Origin: Pyrodictiaceae archaeon
Lineage (GTDB): Archaea > Thermoproteota > Thermoprotei_A > Sulfolobales > Pyrodictiaceae
DNA length: 64,000 nt
Direction of reading: 5' to 3'
Assembly: GCA_027036135.1 (NCBI GenBank)
Contig: JALVSY010000007.1
Location: 748,880-812,879, forward strand
Position numbers and translations under genes: made by a program. Positions 14,870 through 30,159 of this stretch are shown here, piece after piece. Positions within the stretch are counted from its first letter, which is position 1, and every line of letters begins with the position of its first letter. Under the pieces are notes generated by a model that was not told where the DNA came from, did not search any database, and was given only the letters and a program-made list of their open reading frames with translations.

Positions 14870-15007
14870 TTTGGCTCAGACATAAAAAAGTGTTCCTACA
14901 AGCACTGAGTAAAACTTATTGATGCCTTCGATAATAGAGTTATTTGGATAGCTAGCAAAGAGTCTAAAAAGCTATCTTAGCCATTATGATGATTGAGAGG
15001 TGGGCTC

Positions 15008-15865
15008 TTGATAAATCAATCAGCCGTAGTATTCTGTCTTACACAGATACCGGGATGCCCGTTACAAATGCTTATGAGAAAAACCGTGGAGTCCTCCTTA
15101 AACGAGACTAATAACACTAATAACAGTACTAGTAACTCTATGAATATCGTCCTAAACATGGTTTCAGGGATCGCTGGTCGTGTTCTCCGTGCTGGTCTTC
15201 ACCGAGAAGAAGGCTATACTGAGATCTGGCTGCGCATAAGTGGTGCTAGTGGTTACCTAGATCTATTCGAGAATAAAATGAGACAAGAAGAAGGGGTTGC
15301 TTTTCAAAAAATCTTTAGTAATAAGTTTAATACCGTATATCGGATACTAATAGAACATAATAAATGCCCATGTGCTAACGATAAAGTTACTCATTGCCCA
15401 TTATTAAAGGCTATGCCTGGAGCCATGGTAAAGTCTAGCATTATTACGCCGTACGGACTCCTCTGCGAATTCTTGGTCGCTAAGAGCAGAGTTATCTCAG
15501 AGTTAAAGCAGCGCGGCTGTAAGATACTCCTAATGCACGAGATAAATGGCTATGACTTCATGCTGACCCAGAAACAAGAACTCGCCATTATATATGCTTA
15601 CCTCATGGGCTATTATCACTTTCCGCGCAAAGTCAGCCTTAAGGAATTGGCAGCTAAGCTGGGTTTATCTGTTTCAACTCTTGCCGAATTGCTTAGAAAA
15701 GCTGAGGCAAAAGTTATTGATGCTTACATAAGGCATGAGTTACCTCATTATCTTGTAGGTCTAGTGATGAGCAAGAGCACCTATAGAGATTTTGTTGAAA
15801 ACCAATTTGGTTCAAAACATGAGGAGAAGAAAGAGAAAGTGTTAGTTGAGGCCAAGACTAGCTAG
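15008..15865 (+). CDS. HTH_10 (Bat-like) transcription regulator
   Basis: The C-terminal part has the HTH_10 arrangement: LTQKQELAIIYAYLMGYY, then VSLKELAAKLGLSVSTLAEL and LLRKAEAKVIDAYI, as in archaeal bacterio-opsin-activator-type regulators. The N-terminal sensory part contains several Cys: FCLTQIPGCP and a cluster NKCPCANDKVTHCP, which could bind a metal or sense redox state. TTG 15008 is preceded by GAGGTGGG; TTG 14993 is an alternative. Its place just before the Trx-cyt c-CcdA and ccm genes makes it a candidate regulator of the respiratory block (inference). Confidence 0.72.
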   Translation: MINQSAVVFCLTQIPGCPLQMLMRKTVESSLNETNNTNNSTSNSMNIVLNMVSGIAGRVLRAGLHREEGYTEIWLRISGASGYLDLFENKMRQEEGVAFQKIFSNKFNTVYRILIEHNKCPCANDKVTHCPLLKAMPGAMVKSSIITPYGLLCEFLVAKSRVISELKQRGCKILLMHEINGYDFMLTQKQELAIIYAYLMGYYHFPRKVSLKELAAKLGLSVSTLAELLRKAEAKVIDAYIRHELPHYLVGLVMSKSTYRDFVENQFGSKHEEKKEKVLVEAKTS

Positions 15866-16059: not shown

Positions 16060-17628
16060 TTGCCAAGGTTTAGCAGGAAGTCCATGAGGCTTGATCTTAA
16101 GGCTTTTCAGCGCCAGAAGCGCAGTGGCCTTGTACTCATAGTAGTTATCTTAATTGCTGCAACTATCGCGTTTGGACTGGTTGCTTATATGGGCGATGTT
16201 TCTCACCTCTATTTCGAGGTAGAGGGAAAAGCTATTCCTAATCTGGCTACACTACAAAAGCTTATATCTAGCTCCAAGAAACCCGTTGCGGTAATGTTCG
16301 AGTCTCCTACATGCCCTGTTTGTAAGAGGATGTACCCTTACTGGGCTAAGCTTGAAGAAAGGAGTCCAACGCTTCCTGTAAGCTTTTACCATATATTATA
16401 TGGGCCTCAGACAGCCTCTGCTTTTCAGAAGTATCACGTATACGATACGCCAACATTCATAGTATTTGTTAATGGCAAGCCCGTGGCACGACATGTTGGT
16501 GCCTTTATTTCCGGAAATATTACGGATTCTATGTTAGCATGGGCTATTGGAGCCTCTGGGCTACCTCAAGTCATGAATCCAACCGAGCTTGCAAGACAAG
16601 GGCTGAGTATCTTTAATGAGAAGTGTGCTGCTTGCCACGGAATAATACCAGGAATTGATAAAAAATCAATACTATTATGGCTTAGAGGAAGGAAGGTAAT
16701 GAATGATCCATTAGCTAGCGTGTTCTACGAAGCACTGAAGAGGAATATGACGCTTGAAGAATACTTTGGCGGCTATACTAATCTGAGAGACACTGTCGCG
16801 ACTATGAGAAAATATACCGAGTTAACAGCATACGAGCTTAGCAGAACCACTTACCTACTCTCGTATATGTCTCATATTCTACTAGGGCTCAAGCCTCCGG
16901 TATTTAACTTGTCCGACGTAGCCACATTATTTAATTCAACTAGTCCTAAAGAGGCCCTGCCACTGAGAAGCAAAGAGGCCGGCCTAGCCGGACAAGCCGC
17001 TAGTATTATTAGTGCCGTAGCTGCGTTTGTCGCAGGATTCGTTGCAGCCTTCTCACCATGCGTCTTGCCTCTCCTAGTAACACAGGCAGCCACGATCAGT
17101 GCTACTGGGAGAAAGCTAAGTGCTAGTAATTGTGGACTATGTGGGTTTGCTTCATTTCTCGGCGTTATAGCTATAGGCTTATTATTTGTTATCGCGGGAG
17201 TCCTAGCTACAAGCATACAAGAGGTACTTTTACCGGTAATGGCATTAGCCATAATTGCTGCAGGTACAGCGAGCTTACTAGGTGTGCCAGTAGAACTCGA
17301 TACAATGCTAAGCACAAAACATGGAGGACTCTACGGCTTCTGCGCAGCATACGGGTTCCTCGCTGTTCAGTGTAGCCTGCCCTTAGTAGTAGGCTCGCTT
17401 CTCCTAGTATTGAGCGCAGGGGCTGGAATCTCGGGAATACTAGTAGCTGCTAGCTTTGCCCTAGGCGTAAGTCTCCCCCTAGCGATCGTGCTTTATGCTG
17501 TCTCGAGGCTTGGTGCAGGCGTTGTCAATAAGATAATGCAACACAAGAGAGCACTCGATATAATGGGCGGCTTAGTGCTTCTTGGCTCAGGTCTCTACCT
17601 GCTACTATACTCGTTAGGATTTGTTTAA
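16060..17628 (+). CDS. thioredoxin-cytochrome c-CcdA fusion protein
   Basis: Three modules in one 522-residue membrane protein. A TM anchor (about 23-44) is followed by a thioredoxin-like domain with CPVC at 85-88 and cis-Pro YDTPTF near 131. Then comes a monoheme cytochrome c domain with CAACH at 189-193 and a possible distal Met near 270. Last is a CcdA/DsbD-type domain from ~315 with SPCVLPLL (C334), QCSLPLV (C438) and about six TM helices. CcdA moves reducing power across the membrane to thioredoxin-like partners that keep apocytochrome CxxCH thiols reduced; here carrier and partner are fused, with an added heme. TTG 16060 follows AAGGGAGGA. The ccm genes follow 30 nt later. Confidence 0.88.
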   Translation: MPRFSRKSMRLDLKAFQRQKRSGLVLIVVILIAATIAFGLVAYMGDVSHLYFEVEGKAIPNLATLQKLISSSKKPVAVMFESPTCPVCKRMYPYWAKLEERSPTLPVSFYHILYGPQTASAFQKYHVYDTPTFIVFVNGKPVARHVGAFISGNITDSMLAWAIGASGLPQVMNPTELARQGLSIFNEKCAACHGIIPGIDKKSILLWLRGRKVMNDPLASVFYEALKRNMTLEEYFGGYTNLRDTVATMRKYTELTAYELSRTTYLLSYMSHILLGLKPPVFNLSDVATLFNSTSPKEALPLRSKEAGLAGQAASIISAVAAFVAGFVAAFSPCVLPLLVTQAATISATGRKLSASNCGLCGFASFLGVIAIGLLFVIAGVLATSIQEVLLPVMALAIIAAGTASLLGVPVELDTMLSTKHGGLYGFCAAYGFLAVQCSLPLVVGSLLLVLSAGAGISGILVAASFALGVSLPLAIVLYAVSRLGAGVVNKIMQHKRALDIMGGLVLLGSGLYLLLYSLGFV

Positions 17629-17658: not shown

Positions 17659-20600
17659 ATGAGCCTTCATATAGGGCCTCTCCACTACTCCGGTATAGTA
17701 CCATTAGTAGCCCTATTAGTACTGATATATGGTGTTGGTAAGGCACTAATTGGCAGAGATGCCCGAAGGATCCTAAAGATAGGGTTCTTGTTAATCATTA
17801 TTGGCTGGCTTATATATTGGATACCTTATGTTACCCTGGACTTTAGCCTAAAGGAAGTATACTGGGATACAAGCCCGGAGTTGCCCCTCTGGATGCGATT
17901 CGCAGCAGCTTGGGCAGGTAGTGGCGGAAGCTTATTCCTCTTCACACTAATAGCTAGCCTAGCATCGCTCTATGCGCTGAAAAACGCCACACGCTGGTTG
18001 CAAGTCGCGCTAGGCTCTATAACAATAATAGGTCTCATAGCAGCTTTCCTTAATGACGCCTTCACAGCCCTCCCCTCAACTCCCCCTAGCGGCGCCGGGC
18101 TTAACCCCTTGCTAAAGAGCCCCTGGCTATACCCTCACCCACTTTCGACGTTTAGTGGCTATGCCTTACTAGCTATAGCAGCAGCAGCGCTCCTAGCCGG
18201 ACAGAAGAGAAAGGGATACACACTCTACGAGATAGGCTGGGCCTTCCTCACCCTTGGCATACTATTGGGTGGGTACTGGAGCTATGAGACATTTGGCTGG
18301 GGTGGTTACTGGGCCTGGGATCCCGTGGAGACAAGCGAGCTAATGGTGTGGCTAGCAGCCACGCTATTACCACACATACTTTATGCAGCTCCAAGTCTCG
18401 CTGATTTCTCGGAAGGCCTCATAGCCTCCAGCGTGTTCTTAGCAATGTATGTGACGCGCACCGGGCTAAGCCCACTTCACAGCTTTGCCGCCCCAAGCAT
18501 AGGAGCAATAATACTCCTCATCACCGGGTATTCATGGCTCCTCCTAGCAACAATAAAGCTCTACTTCAAACTAGAGCCAGGCATCCGCGACTTAGTAAAT
18601 AGCTTGAGAAGCGGTAGCACGTACCGAGTAGGCATCACTATAGCCGCGCTTTCGCTCTTAGCCGCTACCTTGTTTGTCTACAGCACATTACTGGTCCCGG
18701 CTACAATAATAGCCACAGGTAAGACAGCTAGCGTCCCGCAAATGAATTCGGGTATTCAGTATTTCCACCCAGTTCTCTATCCACTATTAATAACCATGCT
18801 AGCAGCTATGCCAGCAGTGTTCCTCGGAGAATGGCTCGGATGGCGAGGCTACTTCGCCTTACTAGTCACAACGGGTCTTGCGGCAACAACTCTTGGATTA
18901 GCTGCTTACTATGATAAGGTTACCCTAGCGCCTCTAAGCCCTCTCGGAACCAATGCCGAGATGGCCTTTGGACTTGTATGGGCAGGGGTAGCTGCTGCAT
19001 CAACCCTAACATATCTTGGACTCCGCGCTCGTAGAGGACTCCGCGTTCTTTTACGTGACCGCTTGGGTGGATTATCGTTACTTCACTTGGGACTAGCTAT
19101 AACTGTGATAGGGGTGCTACTAAGCGGGACATATGCGTTTAACCAAGCCTATATGAAGACATATCATGTTAAACCTGGGCAAGAAATAGATTTACCGGGC
19201 GGATTCAGACTAGTATTTAAAGGATTTAAGTATAGTATCAGTCATTCAAAGGTGGACATTTATACTAGATACGTAAATCACGCCACAAGTTATTACTATG
19301 GGCAACTGGCACTTTACACTCTTGCCCAAGATTTTGCGCGAACAATACAGAGCTACGAAAAAGGAAAGATCATATACAAGGAGAACCCCATTATAAGAAC
19401 CCTAATAAACATTGCCTCGAAAAAAGCGATATTCTATCCAGGAAACTATACAATAGAGACCCGGGCAACAATAAGATATATAAACTTTGCAACAAATATA
19501 ACACTATTATTAACCGACAACGAACCCGTTAAAATAAAGATAGTAAACATGACCCTAGAACCCCTAGTAAACCAGAACCCTAATACTGGCAAATACTACC
19601 TCTACATGCCGATTCAAGGAAATAAAATAGAAATGATACTGCCACGGAATATATCAAAATTCATAACACCAGAACTAGGAGTACACGCCTTCCTAGCAAT
19701 ACAGTTCACGAAACCAGCAAGAATCATAACCAAAAACTTAACCATAATTATCAATAATGCATCACTATTATCAGAGCAATTCGTAACTGGAGGACAAGGA
19801 GCACCACTAAGGGTAAAGAACAATACTATAACTGGTTCGTTCGCTGTACTTGACATAAGGCATGCAAAGATAATTACAAAGAATGGCACAACAGTAACTA
19901 TACCAGCACAAATACCAGCAAGTGCAATAATATACTACTCTATAACAACTAATCCGACCTACAAGAAAATATTAGAGGCCATTAAAGAGACCGGGCTCTA
20001 CAAAATACTAGCCAATCCAGATAACATACTTAGGCTCGCATTTACGCAGAAGTGTATAAATGAGATGAGCAAGGGAGCATCATTTGCTCCTCCAAGTGAG
20101 TGCCTTGCCTATGTTAGGGCACCGAAGCTAGTACCAGAGACGGCATGGTTAAAACTCCAATTCAAACTAATAAGAGGACACACATCCAAGGAAATCAATA
20201 CCAGAATAAGGTACGAGGCGTATGGCGAGATACAAGGCATACATGGGCTTGTGCCGAAAGTTATTCATCCAGGAGAGGGCATAGACGAGGTTTACATAGT
20301 ATTGGAGCCACCTATGATTAATAGTTTCCTTTATGGCAACCAGATGGCTTACCATGAACTCTTTATTTACTATCTACATGAAGTATTCAAGAATCTGACG
20401 CCTCCCCAGAGACTTGCACTAGCAGCTGTAATGATTGGCGGATATGAGTCCGATATGTTGAAAACAATGAGTGAACAACAAGCCCAGAACCTGCTTGAGG
20501 GAAGCCTCATCGACGTATACATACTAGCTTCTAAGTTTAGTCCAATGAACTCTACAATATATAGAGAGGGGTTACTAGTAAAGGTCAAGATAGTGCCAGG

Positions 20601-20691
20601 TGTAAGACTTGTATGGATAGGACCCATAATAATGGCGGCCTCGGCTCTCTATCTGGCAGGCTTTGCACTATTTACGAGGCGTGAAGGCTGA
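17659..20691 (+). CDS. ccmF: cytochrome c heme lyase subunit CcmF with enlarged external domain
   Basis: CcmF takes heme from CcmE and attaches it to apocytochrome c. The first ~490 residues are polytopic and contain the Trp-rich WWD heme-handling motif (FGWGGYWAWDPVETSELMVW, about 212-231) and conserved His residues. At 1010 aa it is far longer than the usual ~600-660. The excess is a hydrophilic, Asn/Thr-rich region from about 510 to 980 between the last two TM segments, predicted outside the membrane. The C-terminal TM ends FTRREG. The stop overlaps the ccmA start by one base (TGATG). Confidence 0.92.
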   Translation: MSLHIGPLHYSGIVPLVALLVLIYGVGKALIGRDARRILKIGFLLIIIGWLIYWIPYVTLDFSLKEVYWDTSPELPLWMRFAAAWAGSGGSLFLFTLIASLASLYALKNATRWLQVALGSITIIGLIAAFLNDAFTALPSTPPSGAGLNPLLKSPWLYPHPLSTFSGYALLAIAAAALLAGQKRKGYTLYEIGWAFLTLGILLGGYWSYETFGWGGYWAWDPVETSELMVWLAATLLPHILYAAPSLADFSEGLIASSVFLAMYVTRTGLSPLHSFAAPSIGAIILLITGYSWLLLATIKLYFKLEPGIRDLVNSLRSGSTYRVGITIAALSLLAATLFVYSTLLVPATIIATGKTASVPQMNSGIQYFHPVLYPLLITMLAAMPAVFLGEWLGWRGYFALLVTTGLAATTLGLAAYYDKVTLAPLSPLGTNAEMAFGLVWAGVAAASTLTYLGLRARRGLRVLLRDRLGGLSLLHLGLAITVIGVLLSGTYAFNQAYMKTYHVKPGQEIDLPGGFRLVFKGFKYSISHSKVDIYTRYVNHATSYYYGQLALYTLAQDFARTIQSYEKGKIIYKENPIIRTLINIASKKAIFYPGNYTIETRATIRYINFATNITLLLTDNEPVKIKIVNMTLEPLVNQNPNTGKYYLYMPIQGNKIEMILPRNISKFITPELGVHAFLAIQFTKPARIITKNLTIIINNASLLSEQFVTGGQGAPLRVKNNTITGSFAVLDIRHAKIITKNGTTVTIPAQIPASAIIYYSITTNPTYKKILEAIKETGLYKILANPDNILRLAFTQKCINEMSKGASFAPPSECLAYVRAPKLVPETAWLKLQFKLIRGHTSKEINTRIRYEAYGEIQGIHGLVPKVIHPGEGIDEVYIVLEPPMINSFLYGNQMAYHELFIYYLHEVFKNLTPPQRLALAAVMIGGYESDMLKTMSEQQAQNLLEGSLIDVYILASKFSPMNSTIYREGLLVKVKIVPGVRLVWIGPIIMAASALYLAGFALFTRREG

Positions 20692-21341
20692 TGGCGCCTG
20701 TACTTGAGGCACGCAATATATGGAAGGCATATCGGCCCCGAGACTGGGTTTTACGCGGCATAGACCTAACAATTAACACAAGCGACTTCGTGGTAATTGT
20801 CGGCCCCAATGGAAGCGGGAAAACAACCTTTTTAAAAATAGTATCCGGGCTTCTACGCCCCAGCAAAGGCGATATAAAGATATGTGGGCATAAACCTTGG
20901 AGCATCGAAGCCAAGAAGTGTAGAGGAGTTGTCATGCACTGGAGCTTCCTCTATGACGAATTAACTGTTGCAGAAAACCTTAGCTTCTATGCCACTCTTA
21001 GCGGTATACAAAAATATGCACCATATCGAGACAAGATTGTCCACACACTGGGTCTAAATAAGAGACTTCATCAATTAGTGGCGTGGCTCAGCTTCGGATG
21101 GCGGAAAAGAACCGATTTGGCTAGATCATTGCTTGGAGAGCCTAAGTTATTAATACTAGATGAGCCGTTAACAGGACTTGACCCAGATGCTAGCACACGA
21201 CTACTAGAATCACTAAGAGACTACGTTGATAAAGGAGGAGCAATACTTGCTGCAACCCCTAAGGGTGAGGAAGAACTGTTAAAGAGTGCTACCAGAGTAT
21301 ATGAGCTTGCTAATGGGAAACTTATAGAGTCTAGAACATAG
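20691..21341 (+). CDS. ccmA: heme exporter ABC ATPase CcmA
   Basis: Cytoplasmic ATPase that with CcmB drives release of holo-CcmE from CcmC. Walker A GPNGSGKTT and Walker B LLILDEP are intact. The signature is WLSFGWRKR rather than LSGGQ, which CcmA proteins often relax, and the switch region reads AATPKGEEE without the usual His. It overlaps ccmF at one base and is followed by ccmC. Length (216 aa) is normal for CcmA. Confidence 0.85.
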   Translation: MAPVLEARNIWKAYRPRDWVLRGIDLTINTSDFVVIVGPNGSGKTTFLKIVSGLLRPSKGDIKICGHKPWSIEAKKCRGVVMHWSFLYDELTVAENLSFYATLSGIQKYAPYRDKIVHTLGLNKRLHQLVAWLSFGWRKRTDLARSLLGEPKLLILDEPLTGLDPDASTRLLESLRDYVDKGGAILAATPKGEEELLKSATRVYELANGKLIESRT

Positions 21342-21390: not shown

Positions 21391-22467
21391 GTGCTGGAAT
21401 TGACGAATATCAATAAATATGGCTACATATTAGCAATAATCTTCATAATCGATGCTATTATTAGTAGCTATGCTGTCCTAAAAGCGCCTTACCCTGCATT
21501 CGTGAATCTAGGCAGCCCCGCTGCCTATCTAAATATTTACATCCATGTCCCCGTGGCTATGAACAGCTACGTGCTCTATACCGGTGCCTTTATAGCCGCA
21601 ATACTCTACTTAGCCAAACGAGAAGAACGCTATGATAAGTACGTCTATGCATTCACCCTCGTGGCTACACTATACGCTGCTTATACCCTAGTATCTGGTA
21701 GCATGTGGGCGCACGAATCATGGGGTTCCTACTGGAACTGGGACCCAAGAGAGACCGGTGTACTATTATTATTCTTATCATATCTCGTCTATTTCGCGCT
21801 CCGCTCAAGCATAGTCGACCCAGATAGAAAGCCCGTCGTATCATCGACCTACGCCATTGCCGCTTATGCAATGGTTCCAATAAGCTATGCTGCGCCAAGA
21901 ATAGCGAGTTCAAGCCTACACCCAACTATGACGCTCCTTCAGGGCTTCATGGAGCAACTTGAGGTAAGGGCAATACTTTATACAAAGATAATACTAGTTT
22001 TACTAATAGGCCTTTTAGCGGTAAAACTATACGTTGACAAAGAGCATTTATCGCAAAATTCTAAGAGAGCACTAAAAATAGCCATTCTCATCTCCATAAT
22101 CATTATCATAGCCGTTGCAAGTTACTTATCCTCACAATACGCCGGAGGAAAAATTACTAGAGTATACGCTGTATTTGGATCTCCTTTGAGTGCTAAGCTA
22201 TTAGTCAGGGAAGGAAACAGTTTCGTAAATATCTCTGTAGCAGAAAAACTAACCAAATACGTTGTTGCGGGGAGAATAGCTCTAGTGGGCCATATTATCA
22301 AGTTAATAGGCTTACATGGAAATAGAGCTGAGAAAATCGAAATACTTATACCTAGTTGCGTGATACTCGATTTTATATTTTACGCCCTATTTATTTCGGG
22401 ACTAGGCTATATCCTTCTTCACAAGAAAAAAATTGTAGGGGAGGAGGAGTATGAAGAGCAAGGCTAA
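21391..22467 (+). CDS. ccmC: heme handling protein CcmC
   Basis: Polytopic membrane protein that loads heme onto CcmE. The WWD motif reads WAHESWGSYWNWDPRETG (about 106-123), with flanking external His in YIHVPVAMNSY (H52) and SSLHPTM. At 358 aa it is longer than usual (~220-250), with a C-terminal extension containing a hydrophilic external loop and a final TM. GTG 21391 follows GGAGATAGAG. The 3' end overlaps ccmE by 17 nt, implying coupled translation. Confidence 0.9.
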   Translation: MLELTNINKYGYILAIIFIIDAIISSYAVLKAPYPAFVNLGSPAAYLNIYIHVPVAMNSYVLYTGAFIAAILYLAKREERYDKYVYAFTLVATLYAAYTLVSGSMWAHESWGSYWNWDPRETGVLLLFLSYLVYFALRSSIVDPDRKPVVSSTYAIAAYAMVPISYAAPRIASSSLHPTMTLLQGFMEQLEVRAILYTKIILVLLIGLLAVKLYVDKEHLSQNSKRALKIAILISIIIIIAVASYLSSQYAGGKITRVYAVFGSPLSAKLLVREGNSFVNISVAEKLTKYVVAGRIALVGHIIKLIGLHGNRAEKIEILIPSCVILDFIFYALFISGLGYILLHKKKIVGEEEYEEQG

Positions 22468-22858
22468 ATTATTCTCAATCGCTGCCGCACTATTTGTTAT
22501 ATTTGCTGGGATAGGTTATTATGCTGTAAAAAGTAGTTCATACATGGATGTCTCCCAAGTACTAAAACTTAATCACCGAGCCGAGGTTACTGTCAAAGGG
22601 CGTCTCGTAGGTACGCAGTATAACGCACGTGCAGGAGAGTTATATATATTACTTGAGGGGAAGAATGGGGCGAAACTGGTTGCGATTGCTAATGCAAAGT
22701 ACATAGAGGAAAAATATGGCCCTATACAGTACCTTCAATGGGACCCAAATAATGTTGTTATACAAGGAATATACGATCCTCATCAACATGTCTTAATAGT
22801 AACGAATATCCTTGAAGGGTGCCATAGTAACTATAATCAGCCAGCTACACGAGCATAG
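22451..22858 (+). CDS. ccmE: heme chaperone CcmE, Cys-type (CxxxY)
   Basis: CcmE binds heme covalently and passes it to CcmF. One N-terminal TM anchor (about 7-26) is followed by an OB-fold (AEVTVKGRLVGTQYNARAGE, VVIQGIYDP). The heme-binding motif near the C-terminus is CHSNY (C124-Y128), so Cys replaces the His of the classical HxxxY. This variant is known from archaea and some sulfate reducers, where it goes with absence of CcmH. No ccmH is present in this cluster. ATG 22451 lies within the ccmC end and follows GGGGAGGAGG. Confidence 0.92.
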   Translation: MKSKAKLFSIAAALFVIFAGIGYYAVKSSSYMDVSQVLKLNHRAEVTVKGRLVGTQYNARAGELYILLEGKNGAKLVAIANAKYIEEKYGPIQYLQWDPNNVVIQGIYDPHQHVLIVTNILEGCHSNYNQPATRA

Positions 22859-22976: not shown

Positions 22977-23651
22977 GTGGAACAACTAGTTGCATTGCTT
23001 AGAAAAGATGTACTGATTATTAGCAGACGTTGGCATGAACTAGCCTCGCTTATCATAATATCGATCGTCATAGGAATAGGCGTGGCTTATATGATATCGG
23101 GGCCCTTGGCTCCGCTGGCTGAGCGGCTTGATGCAACTGTAGTGGTGGCTGCAGGACAAATAATAGTTTATTTCATAATATCCATAGCTACGGGTTTTAT
23201 AGCAGTATTGCGAGAAGCTGAAAAAGGGACCCTTGATGGCTTGCGAGCTTCTCCTCTTAGCCCGGAGACTCTTTTTGTGGCAAAGCTGATTTATGTATAT
23301 TTGATAATAATTGTTTTATCCTTTGCATATTCCCTTGCTACCATCTTCTTTTCTGGGTATACTAGTATCTTTAATACGAGCTATATAGTGCTTAGTCTCT
23401 CTATAAGTCTTTATTTCGCGTCAGCAACTGCTTTAACCTCCTTTATGATAATCTATAGTGAAGCACGTAGCCTTCTCTCAATGGTGGTTTTATCTGGGTT
23501 GCTTGCTCCATTTCTACAAGAGGCTGATAGGGCGCTAGCAGCAGCTGCGGCAGGAACTGCGACTGGAGGCCAAGCTGCACAGATACTTGGAGCAGCATTA
23601 GCATTCGCGGTTATAGCTACTATATTGTCGAAGCCGCTCTCAGAGATCTAA
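22977..23651 (+). CDS. ccmB: heme exporter membrane subunit CcmB
   Basis: Integral membrane partner of CcmA. It is 224 residues with six predicted TM segments. It begins with a short amphipathic region (LVALLRKDVLIISRRW), and the loop VLREAEKGTLDGLRASPL is the typical CcmB cytoplasmic coupling segment. GTG 22977 follows GGGGAAGG. It is separated from ccmE by 118 nt without another frame. It is usually next to ccmA, whereas here ccmC and ccmE intervene. Confidence 0.88.
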   Translation: MEQLVALLRKDVLIISRRWHELASLIIISIVIGIGVAYMISGPLAPLAERLDATVVVAAGQIIVYFIISIATGFIAVLREAEKGTLDGLRASPLSPETLFVAKLIYVYLIIIVLSFAYSLATIFFSGYTSIFNTSYIVLSLSISLYFASATALTSFMIIYSEARSLLSMVVLSGLLAPFLQEADRALAAAAAGTATGGQAAQILGAALAFAVIATILSKPLSEI

Positions 23652-25326: not shown

Positions 25327-26007
25327 TCAGTGACGACGGGCAAGAGCGATAGCTGCTATTATTATTCCTATGATGAGCACTGCTATTCCGGCGTATAGCC
25401 CCGTTTTTATCATTTTGTGTAAGTGGCTGCTATACGGCTTCACCGTCCTCCAGGCCGTCTCAGTGATAGTTGGGGGCGGGGTTGTATATGCCTTTTTGGA
25501 TACTGTTGTAGTGGTTGACGTAGTAGTTGTACTAGTGGTCGTAGTAGTTGTTGTCTTTGTAGTTGTAGTAGTTACCGTGGTAGTCGTGGTAGTGGTTTTT
25601 GCTGTAGTTGTTGTCTTTGCCGTACTAGTAGTAGTCGCTGCTCCCGCTTTCGCCTCCTCGAATACCTGCTTAAAGAAGTCATATAGTAGCTTAAAGTCTT
25701 GATTACTTAGTCCCCCTGCATAACTTCTCATTTGCTGCATAAGCTGCTCATAGCTACTTGCTTGTTTATACTCATGTGCGACGGCCTCATCAAGAGTCTT
25801 GTATTTCTTAGCCCATCCCTTTATGATTTTGACTAGTTGATCAAACGATGGAGCCACTTGACCGTTATGACATGTTGCACAATGGGCTTGAAATATTTGT
25901 TTCACTTTCGCTTCATTAGCTGTTTGGCTAGCGGCTATCCCTATACCAAGCATTAATAGAGCCATTACTACAAGCCCAAGGATGCTTCTTGCACCGGCGC
26001 GGGCCAT
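25327..26007 (-). CDS. monoheme cytochrome c with Thr-rich stalk and C-terminal anchor
   Basis: A signal peptide (to about residue 27) precedes a small cytochrome c domain with one CATCH site (C43-H47). From about 123 to 180 comes a stretch made almost only of Thr, probably an O-glycosylated extended stalk. A TM helix (about 203-223) ends ALARRH. The heme domain would stand away from the membrane, reaching through the S-layer space. It lies downstream of the NrfD gene, with a palindrome at 26024-26037 just before its start, and may take electrons from the NrfD/FeS module. Confidence 0.82.
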   Translation of the reverse strand: MARAGARSILGLVVMALLMLGIGIAASQTANEAKVKQIFQAHCATCHNGQVAPSFDQLVKIIKGWAKKYKTLDEAVAHEYKQASSYEQLMQQMRSYAGGLSNQDFKLLYDFFKQVFEEAKAGAATTTSTAKTTTTAKTTTTTTTVTTTTTKTTTTTTTSTTTTSTTTTVSKKAYTTPPPTITETAWRTVKPYSSHLHKMIKTGLYAGIAVLIIGIIIAAIALARRH

Positions 26008-29457: not shown

Positions 29458-30159
29458 ATGAAACACATTATAATGTTTGCTATTATTGTTGCCCTTATTA
29501 TAATGATCGGTTTGACAAGCTATCAATATGCACGTGCAATGAGTTCGGGTGCTCCTTCTCTGAATTGCGTGCAATGCCACCGCGGCGCAGAGAAAAGACC
29601 AGCTACATTTATTATAGAGGGGTTGCCAAAGAAATATACACCTAGTAAGATATATACAATAATAATAAAGATAACAAATGGACCAAAATGTAATCCGAAT
29701 ATCGCATGCGGTGGCTTTGCTGTAAAAGTGAATTCGGGCAAACTGATAGTGACAGATCCTAAAGATACTCAAATACGGGCCTCGCCCATGGGGGAGATAA
29801 TCACACATACTAAACAAGGCTCAAAGAAACGTGAATGGAGCTTTGAATGGAAGGCCCCAAAGACCATGAGGCCCGTAACCTTTGAAATATCGGTGCTCGC
29901 CGCCAACGGTGATGGAAGCCCACTAGGCGATGCCTTTGCACAAAAGATCATCACTATTCAACCAGTATCGGTCACAACAAGTACAATAACTATGAACAAG
30001 ACTAAGAATCCAACAATTACCAAAATAACACCAAAGACGCAACCCTACACGATTACTACAAAAAAACAAGAAAAACGCAACACCCTAGTAGCAACTGCAT
30101 CAGCAATACTCCTATTTGTACTAGCTACAGCTGCATACCTATTTGTTATTCGAAAATAG
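29458..30159 (+). CDS. monoheme cytochrome c with Reeler-like domain and C-terminal anchor
   Basis: A signal/anchor segment (4-19) is followed by one heme site CVQCH (C37-H41). A beta-rich domain (about 48-165; GLPKKYTPSKIYTIIIKI, SPLGDAFAQKI) resembles Reeler/choice-of-anchor-V domains found with cytochromes in bacteria; two further Cys (PKCNPNIACG) may form a disulfide. Then a Thr/Lys-rich stalk and a final TM (about 209-230) ending VIRK. It points away from the tetraheme gene and closes the respiratory block. Likely an exported electron carrier or heme-binding adhesion-like protein. Confidence 0.7.
   Translation: MKHIIMFAIIVALIIMIGLTSYQYARAMSSGAPSLNCVQCHRGAEKRPATFIIEGLPKKYTPSKIYTIIIKITNGPKCNPNIACGGFAVKVNSGKLIVTDPKDTQIRASPMGEIITHTKQGSKKREWSFEWKAPKTMRPVTFEISVLAANGDGSPLGDAFAQKIITIQPVSVTTSTITMNKTKNPTITKITPKTQPYTITTKKQEKRNTLVATASAILLFVLATAAYLFVIRK

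Follow-up and report, generated by a model that had tools for sequence, protein, structure and literature searches.

How does the machinery that attaches heme to cytochromes c obtain its electrons? Cytochrome c synthesis requires reduced cysteines together with reduced heme iron. How the thiols are reduced is known; for the heme of CcmF, the reductant has been described as unknown (PMC10663686). The question is raised by a gene in a 64,000-nucleotide stretch of DNA from a heat-loving Pyrodictiaceae archaeon (the window; coordinates refer to its + strand unless marked otherwise). This gene encodes a thioredoxin (Trx) domain, a monoheme cytochrome c and a CcdA-type membrane domain in one chain, a fusion which makes the electron supply of the heme-attachment machine testable. 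The single parts are known, and so are Trx-CcdA fusions, but a heme inserted in the relay is, as far as open-access papers show, undescribed; our literature search, which covered open-access papers only, revealed no description of a Trx-cytochrome c-CcdA architecture. In the accessible parts of the genome paper of Pyrodictium delaneyi, Pdsh_09020 of the ccm cluster is named only as a CcdA-superfamily protein; the CcdA-superfamily protein beside the ccm genes is predicted there to be a functional CcmH homologue, with no mention of a heme or a thioredoxin in these parts (PMC5556600). A 2015 survey of archaeal cytochromes gives, in its accessible part, only Igni_0579 and Igni_1052 as monoheme candidates of Ignicoccus hospitalis, both described without Trx or CcdA parts. 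A Reeler-domain protein with a CXXCH motif (PF02014) encoded in the window (29458–30159) resembles these spondin-like candidates.

The fusion gene (16060–17628) is one intact, uninterrupted open reading frame of 522 amino acids. A GGGAGG motif 10 bases 5' of the TTG codon fits TTG as the start, and an alternative ATG start is possible at 16084. Hydropathy and charge indicate an N-terminal membrane anchor (residues ~22–44, 16123–16191), and the basic N-terminus of the protein (8 K/R versus 1 D/E) argues for an N-in orientation of this anchor. It is followed by the thioredoxin domain (residues ~56–168, 16225–16563) with the motif CPVC at residues 85–88 (16312–16323) and a cis-proline in TPTF. 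The Pfam family Thioredoxin (PF00085) matched residues 64–154 above its cut-off (E 6e-10), a profile match to a PDB thioredoxin was obtained for the domain (E 1.7e-15), and a Foldseek search with the full-length model retrieved thioredoxins. The Trx domain had no match to a CcmG/DsbE family model, and NCBIfam gave thioredoxin, PDI and MauD models, all below their cut-offs. By model match the domain is therefore assigned as a thioredoxin and not as CcmG/DsbE; it is nevertheless predicted to be a membrane-anchored extracytoplasmic thioredoxin fold with a CPxC motif, as found in the CcmG family. The monoheme cytochrome c domain (residues ~172–285, 16573–16914) carries CAACH at residues 189–193 (16624–16638) and Met249 (16804–16806) as candidate axial ligand; Cytochrome_CBB3 matched residues 178–201 below the cut-off (E 0.003). 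The CcdA-type membrane domain (16984–17619) contains Cys334 in SPCVLP (17059–17061) and Cys438 in QCSLP (17371–17373), matching the redox cysteine pair of the CcdA family, of which one lies in TM1 (SPC.xP) and the other in TM4 (QC.xP). Here DsbD_TM matched residues 319–484, again below the cut-off (E 0.055), and the hydropathy and charge pattern is consistent with about six transmembrane helices in an N-out arrangement. The full-length model was poor (pTM 0.44, pLDDT 76.5) and too weak to judge domain contacts. Hydropathy and positive-inside charges fit a predicted topology with an N-in anchor, the Trx and heme domains outside and an N-out CcdA domain.

The two weak Pfam calls were settled by the relatives of the protein. 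A search within the family yielded ten full-length triple fusions, the window's own included, with 45–79% identity to the window protein. A class-wide search widened this set to 21 complete genes from four families of one archaeal order (33–79% identity). Three further genes were broken or partial, frameshifted in genome G006 and truncated in G016 and G133. In G006 (loci L021 and L081) the frameshift lies at the start of the cytochrome domain, and adjacent genes are broken too, which makes assembly errors likely. Among the carriers are I. hospitalis, which we take to be genome G137 (1,297,538 bp), and P. delaneyi Su06 (G004, 2,023,836 bp; PMC5556600). Among 398 sampled genomes of the phylum, no triple fusion was found outside the order. 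A pattern scan of the genomes of 84,980 species, which detects close relatives only, returned archaeal records only; those named by group belonged to Pyrodictiaceae, Desulfurococcales and Acidilobaceae. Since the domain order repeats in independent assemblies, a sequencing artefact is excluded.

The alignment of the 21 triples showed invariant residues in all three domains: C85, P86, C88 and P131 in the Trx domain, C189, C192, H193, W207 and M249 in the cytochrome domain, and C334 and C438 in the CcdA domain. The latter two cysteines were also found in all Trx-CcdA fusions that lack the heme domain. Mean pairwise identity was 50% for the Trx domain, 44% for the CcdA domain and 33% for the cytochrome domain. 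Only 6 of the 114 columns of the cytochrome domain are invariant, with both cysteines, the histidine and the methionine among them. Such retention of the heme-site ligands while the rest of the domain drifts is the pattern of a used heme site. The three-part architecture proposed from the window alone thus stood up, and the order Trx-cytochrome c-CcdA recurs beyond the window. Additional cysteines (C358, C361 and C428) were considered as heme-linked and rejected: among the triples the full trio is limited to Pyrodictiaceae, yet it also occurs in heme-free fusions and consequently is not tied to heme.

Is the middle domain indeed a cytochrome? When the cytochrome segments were searched in isolation, 20 of the 21 matched Cytochrome_CBB3 at E ≤ 1 and 15 matched Cytochrom_C. 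The decisive comparison came from a second gene of the window, 9 kb from the fusion gene, which encodes a membrane-anchored, stand-alone monoheme cytochrome c that has a Thr-rich stalk and a C-terminal transmembrane segment (25327–26007 (−); PF00034, E 4.6e-6, above cut-off). The family profile of the fused domain aligned with that of the stand-alone family over 96 columns (hhalign, E 3.2e-10), with Met placed on Met. Its C-terminal half, which lacks the CXXCH motif, aligned with the stand-alone family in the same register (E 1e-4). The stand-alone family in turn matches solved class I cytochromes c552 and c555 in the PDB. In a secondary test hhalign gave E 3e-6 against three textbook cytochromes. 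The C-terminal half alone retrieved no cytochrome among PDB sequences, and peroxidase-like matches of the domain were therefore not relied on. The AF2 model of the domain is all-helical (pLDDT 93.5), with a helix leading into the CXXCH motif and a C-terminal helix after M249. An N-terminal CXXCH, a later invariant Met and a C-terminal helix, the traits of class I cytochromes c, are thus all present. A Foldseek search of this model against the PDB gave nothing at E ≤ 0.001 and no cytochrome c among the matches listed; predicted without its heme, the apo domain may be a poor basis for such a comparison. The assignment of the CAACH region as a cytochrome accordingly holds by homology to a cytochrome c family and found no counterpart in the structural search, so that the cytochrome fold rests on sequence homology.

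Because of the homology to the stand-alone family the fused domain is assigned, at the level of sequence, as a class I-like cytochrome that was taken over from a respiratory family. We are highly confident that it is a real, heme-loaded monoheme c-type cytochrome, for which homology is observed and heme loading deduced; M249 is the putative second ligand, and ligation is probably His/Met. The genomic context of the stand-alone family points to respiration: its member in Aeropyrum adjoins COX2, SCO1, Rieske and cytochrome b genes, a context that would fit the bc-complex cytochrome Ape_1719.1 (PMC4429474). The stand-alone family occurs in most of the genomes searched and in none of the five genomes of the genus Ignicoccus.

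The original prediction placed the fusion ahead of ccm genes, and this was confirmed. The start of ccmF (17659–20691), which encodes a heme lyase of 1010 amino acids by Pfam and alignment with all four heme-ligand His columns conserved, lies 30 bp 3' of the fusion gene. It is followed by ccmA (ABC ATPase, 20691–21341; PF00005 and synteny), ccmC (21391–22467; PF01578, E 3e-28, with TIGR01191 below its cut-off), ccmE (22451–22858) and ccmB (22977–23651; ABC2_membrane PF01061 and synteny). The ccmE product had no family-model match and is named from its CHSNY motif, of the CxxxY type, and synteny alone. Some ~450 residues of CcmF have no counterpart in the alignment with the 660-residue Thermus CcmF (6zmq), and the protein is of similar length across the order; this additional part could stand in for CcmH/I. 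Across families, a gene for an HTH_10 (DmsR/Bat-like) regulator, in the window at 14993–15865, recurs beside the ccm cluster. Immediately 5' of ccmF, nearly every genome examined has the fusion gene, whether or not this includes a heme domain. The arrangement differs in I. hospitalis, where 1.3 kb separate the fusion from a ccmF on the opposite strand, and in I. islandicus and Pyrolobus no ccmF lies near the fusion. Several fusion-bearing clusters also hold octaheme and tetraheme cytochromes.

The source genome (2.2 Mb, 99.6% complete) contains one CcmF and one CcmC, its only DsbD_TM match is the fusion gene, and no match to CcmH was found in it. Neither was a second exported thioredoxin: the other two Trx matches and two peroxiredoxins have no transmembrane or signal segment. 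The absence of separate CcmG and CcmH, claimed at first for the window, hence extends to the whole genome. Together, ccmA, B, C, E and F, a CxxxY-type CcmE and the absence of CcmH correspond to the archaeal variant of System I. As there is neither CcmH nor another exported thioredoxin in the genome, the Trx-CcdA part is the obvious equivalent of CcmG plus CcdA. The idea that the fusion replaces CcmG/CcmH must therefore be divided. Its Trx and CcdA parts account for the role of CcmG and CcdA, but there is no sign of a replacement of CcmH, since most archaea have no CcmH, with or without such a fusion (PMC9084895).

Trx-CcdA fusions without the cytochrome domain were found in Aeropyrum, in Pyrolobus and as a second copy in Pyrodictium; the Aeropyrum pernix and Pyrolobus fumarii genomes are presumably G046 (1,669,696 bp) and G011 (1,843,267 bp). 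The spacer between Trx and CcdA comprises 0–23 residues in these doubles versus 100–152 in the triples. Since heme-free fusions, too, are found in this order and beside ccmF, the distinctive part of the window protein is its heme domain and not the fusion, which qualifies the original interpretation. P. abyssi (G003) and P. delaneyi each carry one triple and one double, every fusion with its own ccmF. In both genomes (loci L078 and L080) the heme-free fusion and its ccmF paralogue lie near a different octaheme cytochrome, for which they possibly form a dedicated synthase.

On the tree of the Trx and CcdA parts, a single clade of all triples was rejected (AU test, p 0.0026), which points to losses of the heme domain. 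The heme-free Pyrolobus pair is nested among the triples (support 98/94) and is best read as such a loss. The Aeropyrum doubles fall, in the tree built from CcmF, inside a triple-associated, Acidilobaceae-type group (support 100/99), so the domain was probably lost in the Aeropyrum lineage as well. An Aeropyrum relative (G048, L111:9094–10413) encodes a Trx-CcdA protein with a shrunken domain in which CGDCH is kept and the Met is gone, likely a degenerate cytochrome and an apparent intermediate of loss. Independent gains are less likely, because the same cytochrome stands at the same place. Loss in some lineages indicates that the domain is accessory to the Trx-CcdA-CcmF function, useful but not essential. 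Heme-copper oxidase, as a marker of an aerobic life style, and VKOR were both tried as correlates of the heme domain; with too few independent pairs neither found support. We likewise rejected the idea that the fused heme stands in for a heme lost from CcmF, because all four His are conserved, with or without a heme domain, in every CcmF sequence that covers them.

What could the protein do? We propose, with an even chance of being right, that it supplies electrons, as a module made of one chain, to the CcmF synthase of an archaeal System I without CcmH, and that its tethered c-heme trades electrons with this module. This proposal relies on the catalytic and ligand residues invariant in all three domains of the 21 homologues, on the adjacency to ccmF across families, including an own ccmF for each fusion type in P. 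delaneyi and P. abyssi, and on the N-out CcdA topology that fits hydropathy and positive-inside charges. The CcdA domain would take electrons from the cytoplasm via C334 and C438 to the extracytoplasmic CPVC site, which would reduce the disulfide in the CXXCH motif of apocytochromes before heme is attached. A thiol-reductase role is likely, and the protein very likely combines CcmG and CcdA in one polypeptide for the reduction of apocytochrome thiols. The heme would trade single electrons with the Trx/CcdA module as an add-on, and lineages without the domain would keep Trx-CcdA and CcmF. Reduced by the relay and placed beside CcmF, it may pass electrons singly to the ferric heme that CcmE delivers, and a single chain would then serve both thiols and heme iron; this version, which seems to us the likeliest, we put forward tentatively, at less than even probability. 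That the tethered c-heme is the missing reductant of the CcmF/CcmE heme, in a thiol-to-heme circuit inside the synthase complex, appears rather unlikely. If true, a thiol-fed heme would mean that a single protein supplies electrons to apocytochrome thiols and heme iron. The fusion is also an example of a respiratory-type cytochrome taken into the cytochrome-making machine. The Pyrodictium triple and its heme-free sister, each with its own ccmF, offer a natural comparison with and without the domain for the question of the CcmF-heme reductant.

The potential of a His/Met heme is usually high and lies above that of CcmG thiols. Thiol-to-heme transfer would then be the downhill direction, which for flow through the heme domain we favor with considerable reserve. 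From there, transfer to the transmembrane heme of CcmF (−147 mV, PMC10663686) could be uphill, except with a fused heme of unusually low potential. A precedent for heme-thiol electron exchange in the pathway is the reduction of CcmG by NapB in Shewanella (PMC8782879). Points against the proposal are that ccmG and ccdA are dispensable in Methanosarcina under reducing conditions (PMC9084895), the loss of the heme domain in some lineages without loss of CcmF, and the missing Foldseek match.

The NapB precedent also agrees with a rival reading: the heme could take electrons from extracytoplasmic multiheme cytochromes, driven by H2 or formate, and reduce the thioredoxin, with less need for a cytoplasmic reductant. 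A cytochrome c that reduces CcmG (PMC8782879), the respiratory homologue of the fused domain and the octaheme and tetraheme cytochromes in several clusters all fit this entry route, which we regard as improbable, because a heme with the probable His/Met ligation would be expected at a higher potential than CcmG-type thiols (−220 to −175 mV, PMC8782879) and the CcdA domain always keeps both cysteines, so that the cytoplasmic route remains. Equally improbable is a built-in substrate or checkpoint, in which the tethered cytochrome would be the first apocytochrome matured by the adjacent CcmF and its occupancy or fold would dock or gate the complex without catalytic transfer. The conserved pairing with ccmF would agree with it, as would the repeated loss of the heme domain with no visible change in the CcmF heme ligands; but W207 and the candidate axial Met show the same strict conservation as the thioether cysteines, and this speaks for a folded heme active in electron transfer more than for a substrate peptide only.

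Flow in the opposite, DsbB-like sense, with the heme draining electrons from Trx and the module oxidizing extracytoplasmic thiols in organisms without VKOR, is very unlikely. VKOR is indeed absent from the source genome and from most of the Pyrodictiaceae and Ignicoccus genomes searched, but it is present in several genomes with the triple fusion, the test on independent pairs gave nothing, and a CcdA domain with intact cysteines in a ccm setting points to reduction. Finally, a CXXCH motif arising by chance, or a vestigial cytochrome without heme, would account for the individual Pfam scores below the curated cut-off and for the Foldseek result, and a degenerate remnant does exist in the one Aeropyrum relative. 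This is hardly credible in view of ligands invariant in 21 of 21 sequences while the rest drifts, and of the homology to a family of genuine cytochromes c.

Several known systems are close to the electron-supply module proposed here. One is the heme-free Trx-CcdA double, which shares the anchor, Trx and CcdA parts and often lies directly 5' of ccmF; it differs in that the triple has a cytochrome domain between Trx and CcdA. A variant archaeal System I with a CxxxY CcmE and no CcmH was reportedly described by Allen in 2006. As in bacterial System I with CcmG and CcdA/DsbD, a CcdA-type relay feeds an extracytoplasmic thioredoxin fold with CPxC beside ccm genes, but there CcmG is separate and the relay has no heme. 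The variant System I of Methanosarcina likewise has ccmABCEF, a CxxxY CcmE and no CcmH, but its ccmG and ccdA are separate genes and not fused around a cytochrome (PMC9084895). In Shewanella dsbD mutants NapB provides a functional precedent for electrons passing from one to the other of a cytochrome c and the thiol relay of the Ccm system; however, it is a separate diheme protein that acts as a suppressor (PMC8782879). The molecule name of PDB entry 2l4d, a SCO1/SenC-cytochrome c protein, also combines a thioredoxin-fold family with a cytochrome c, but it belongs to a copper chaperone family and has no CcdA membrane relay. In A. pernix, a second, distant Trx-CcdA fusion (L091:7649–9647) directly follows a SCO1 gene and COX2, which suggests a CuA-maturation version of the same module.
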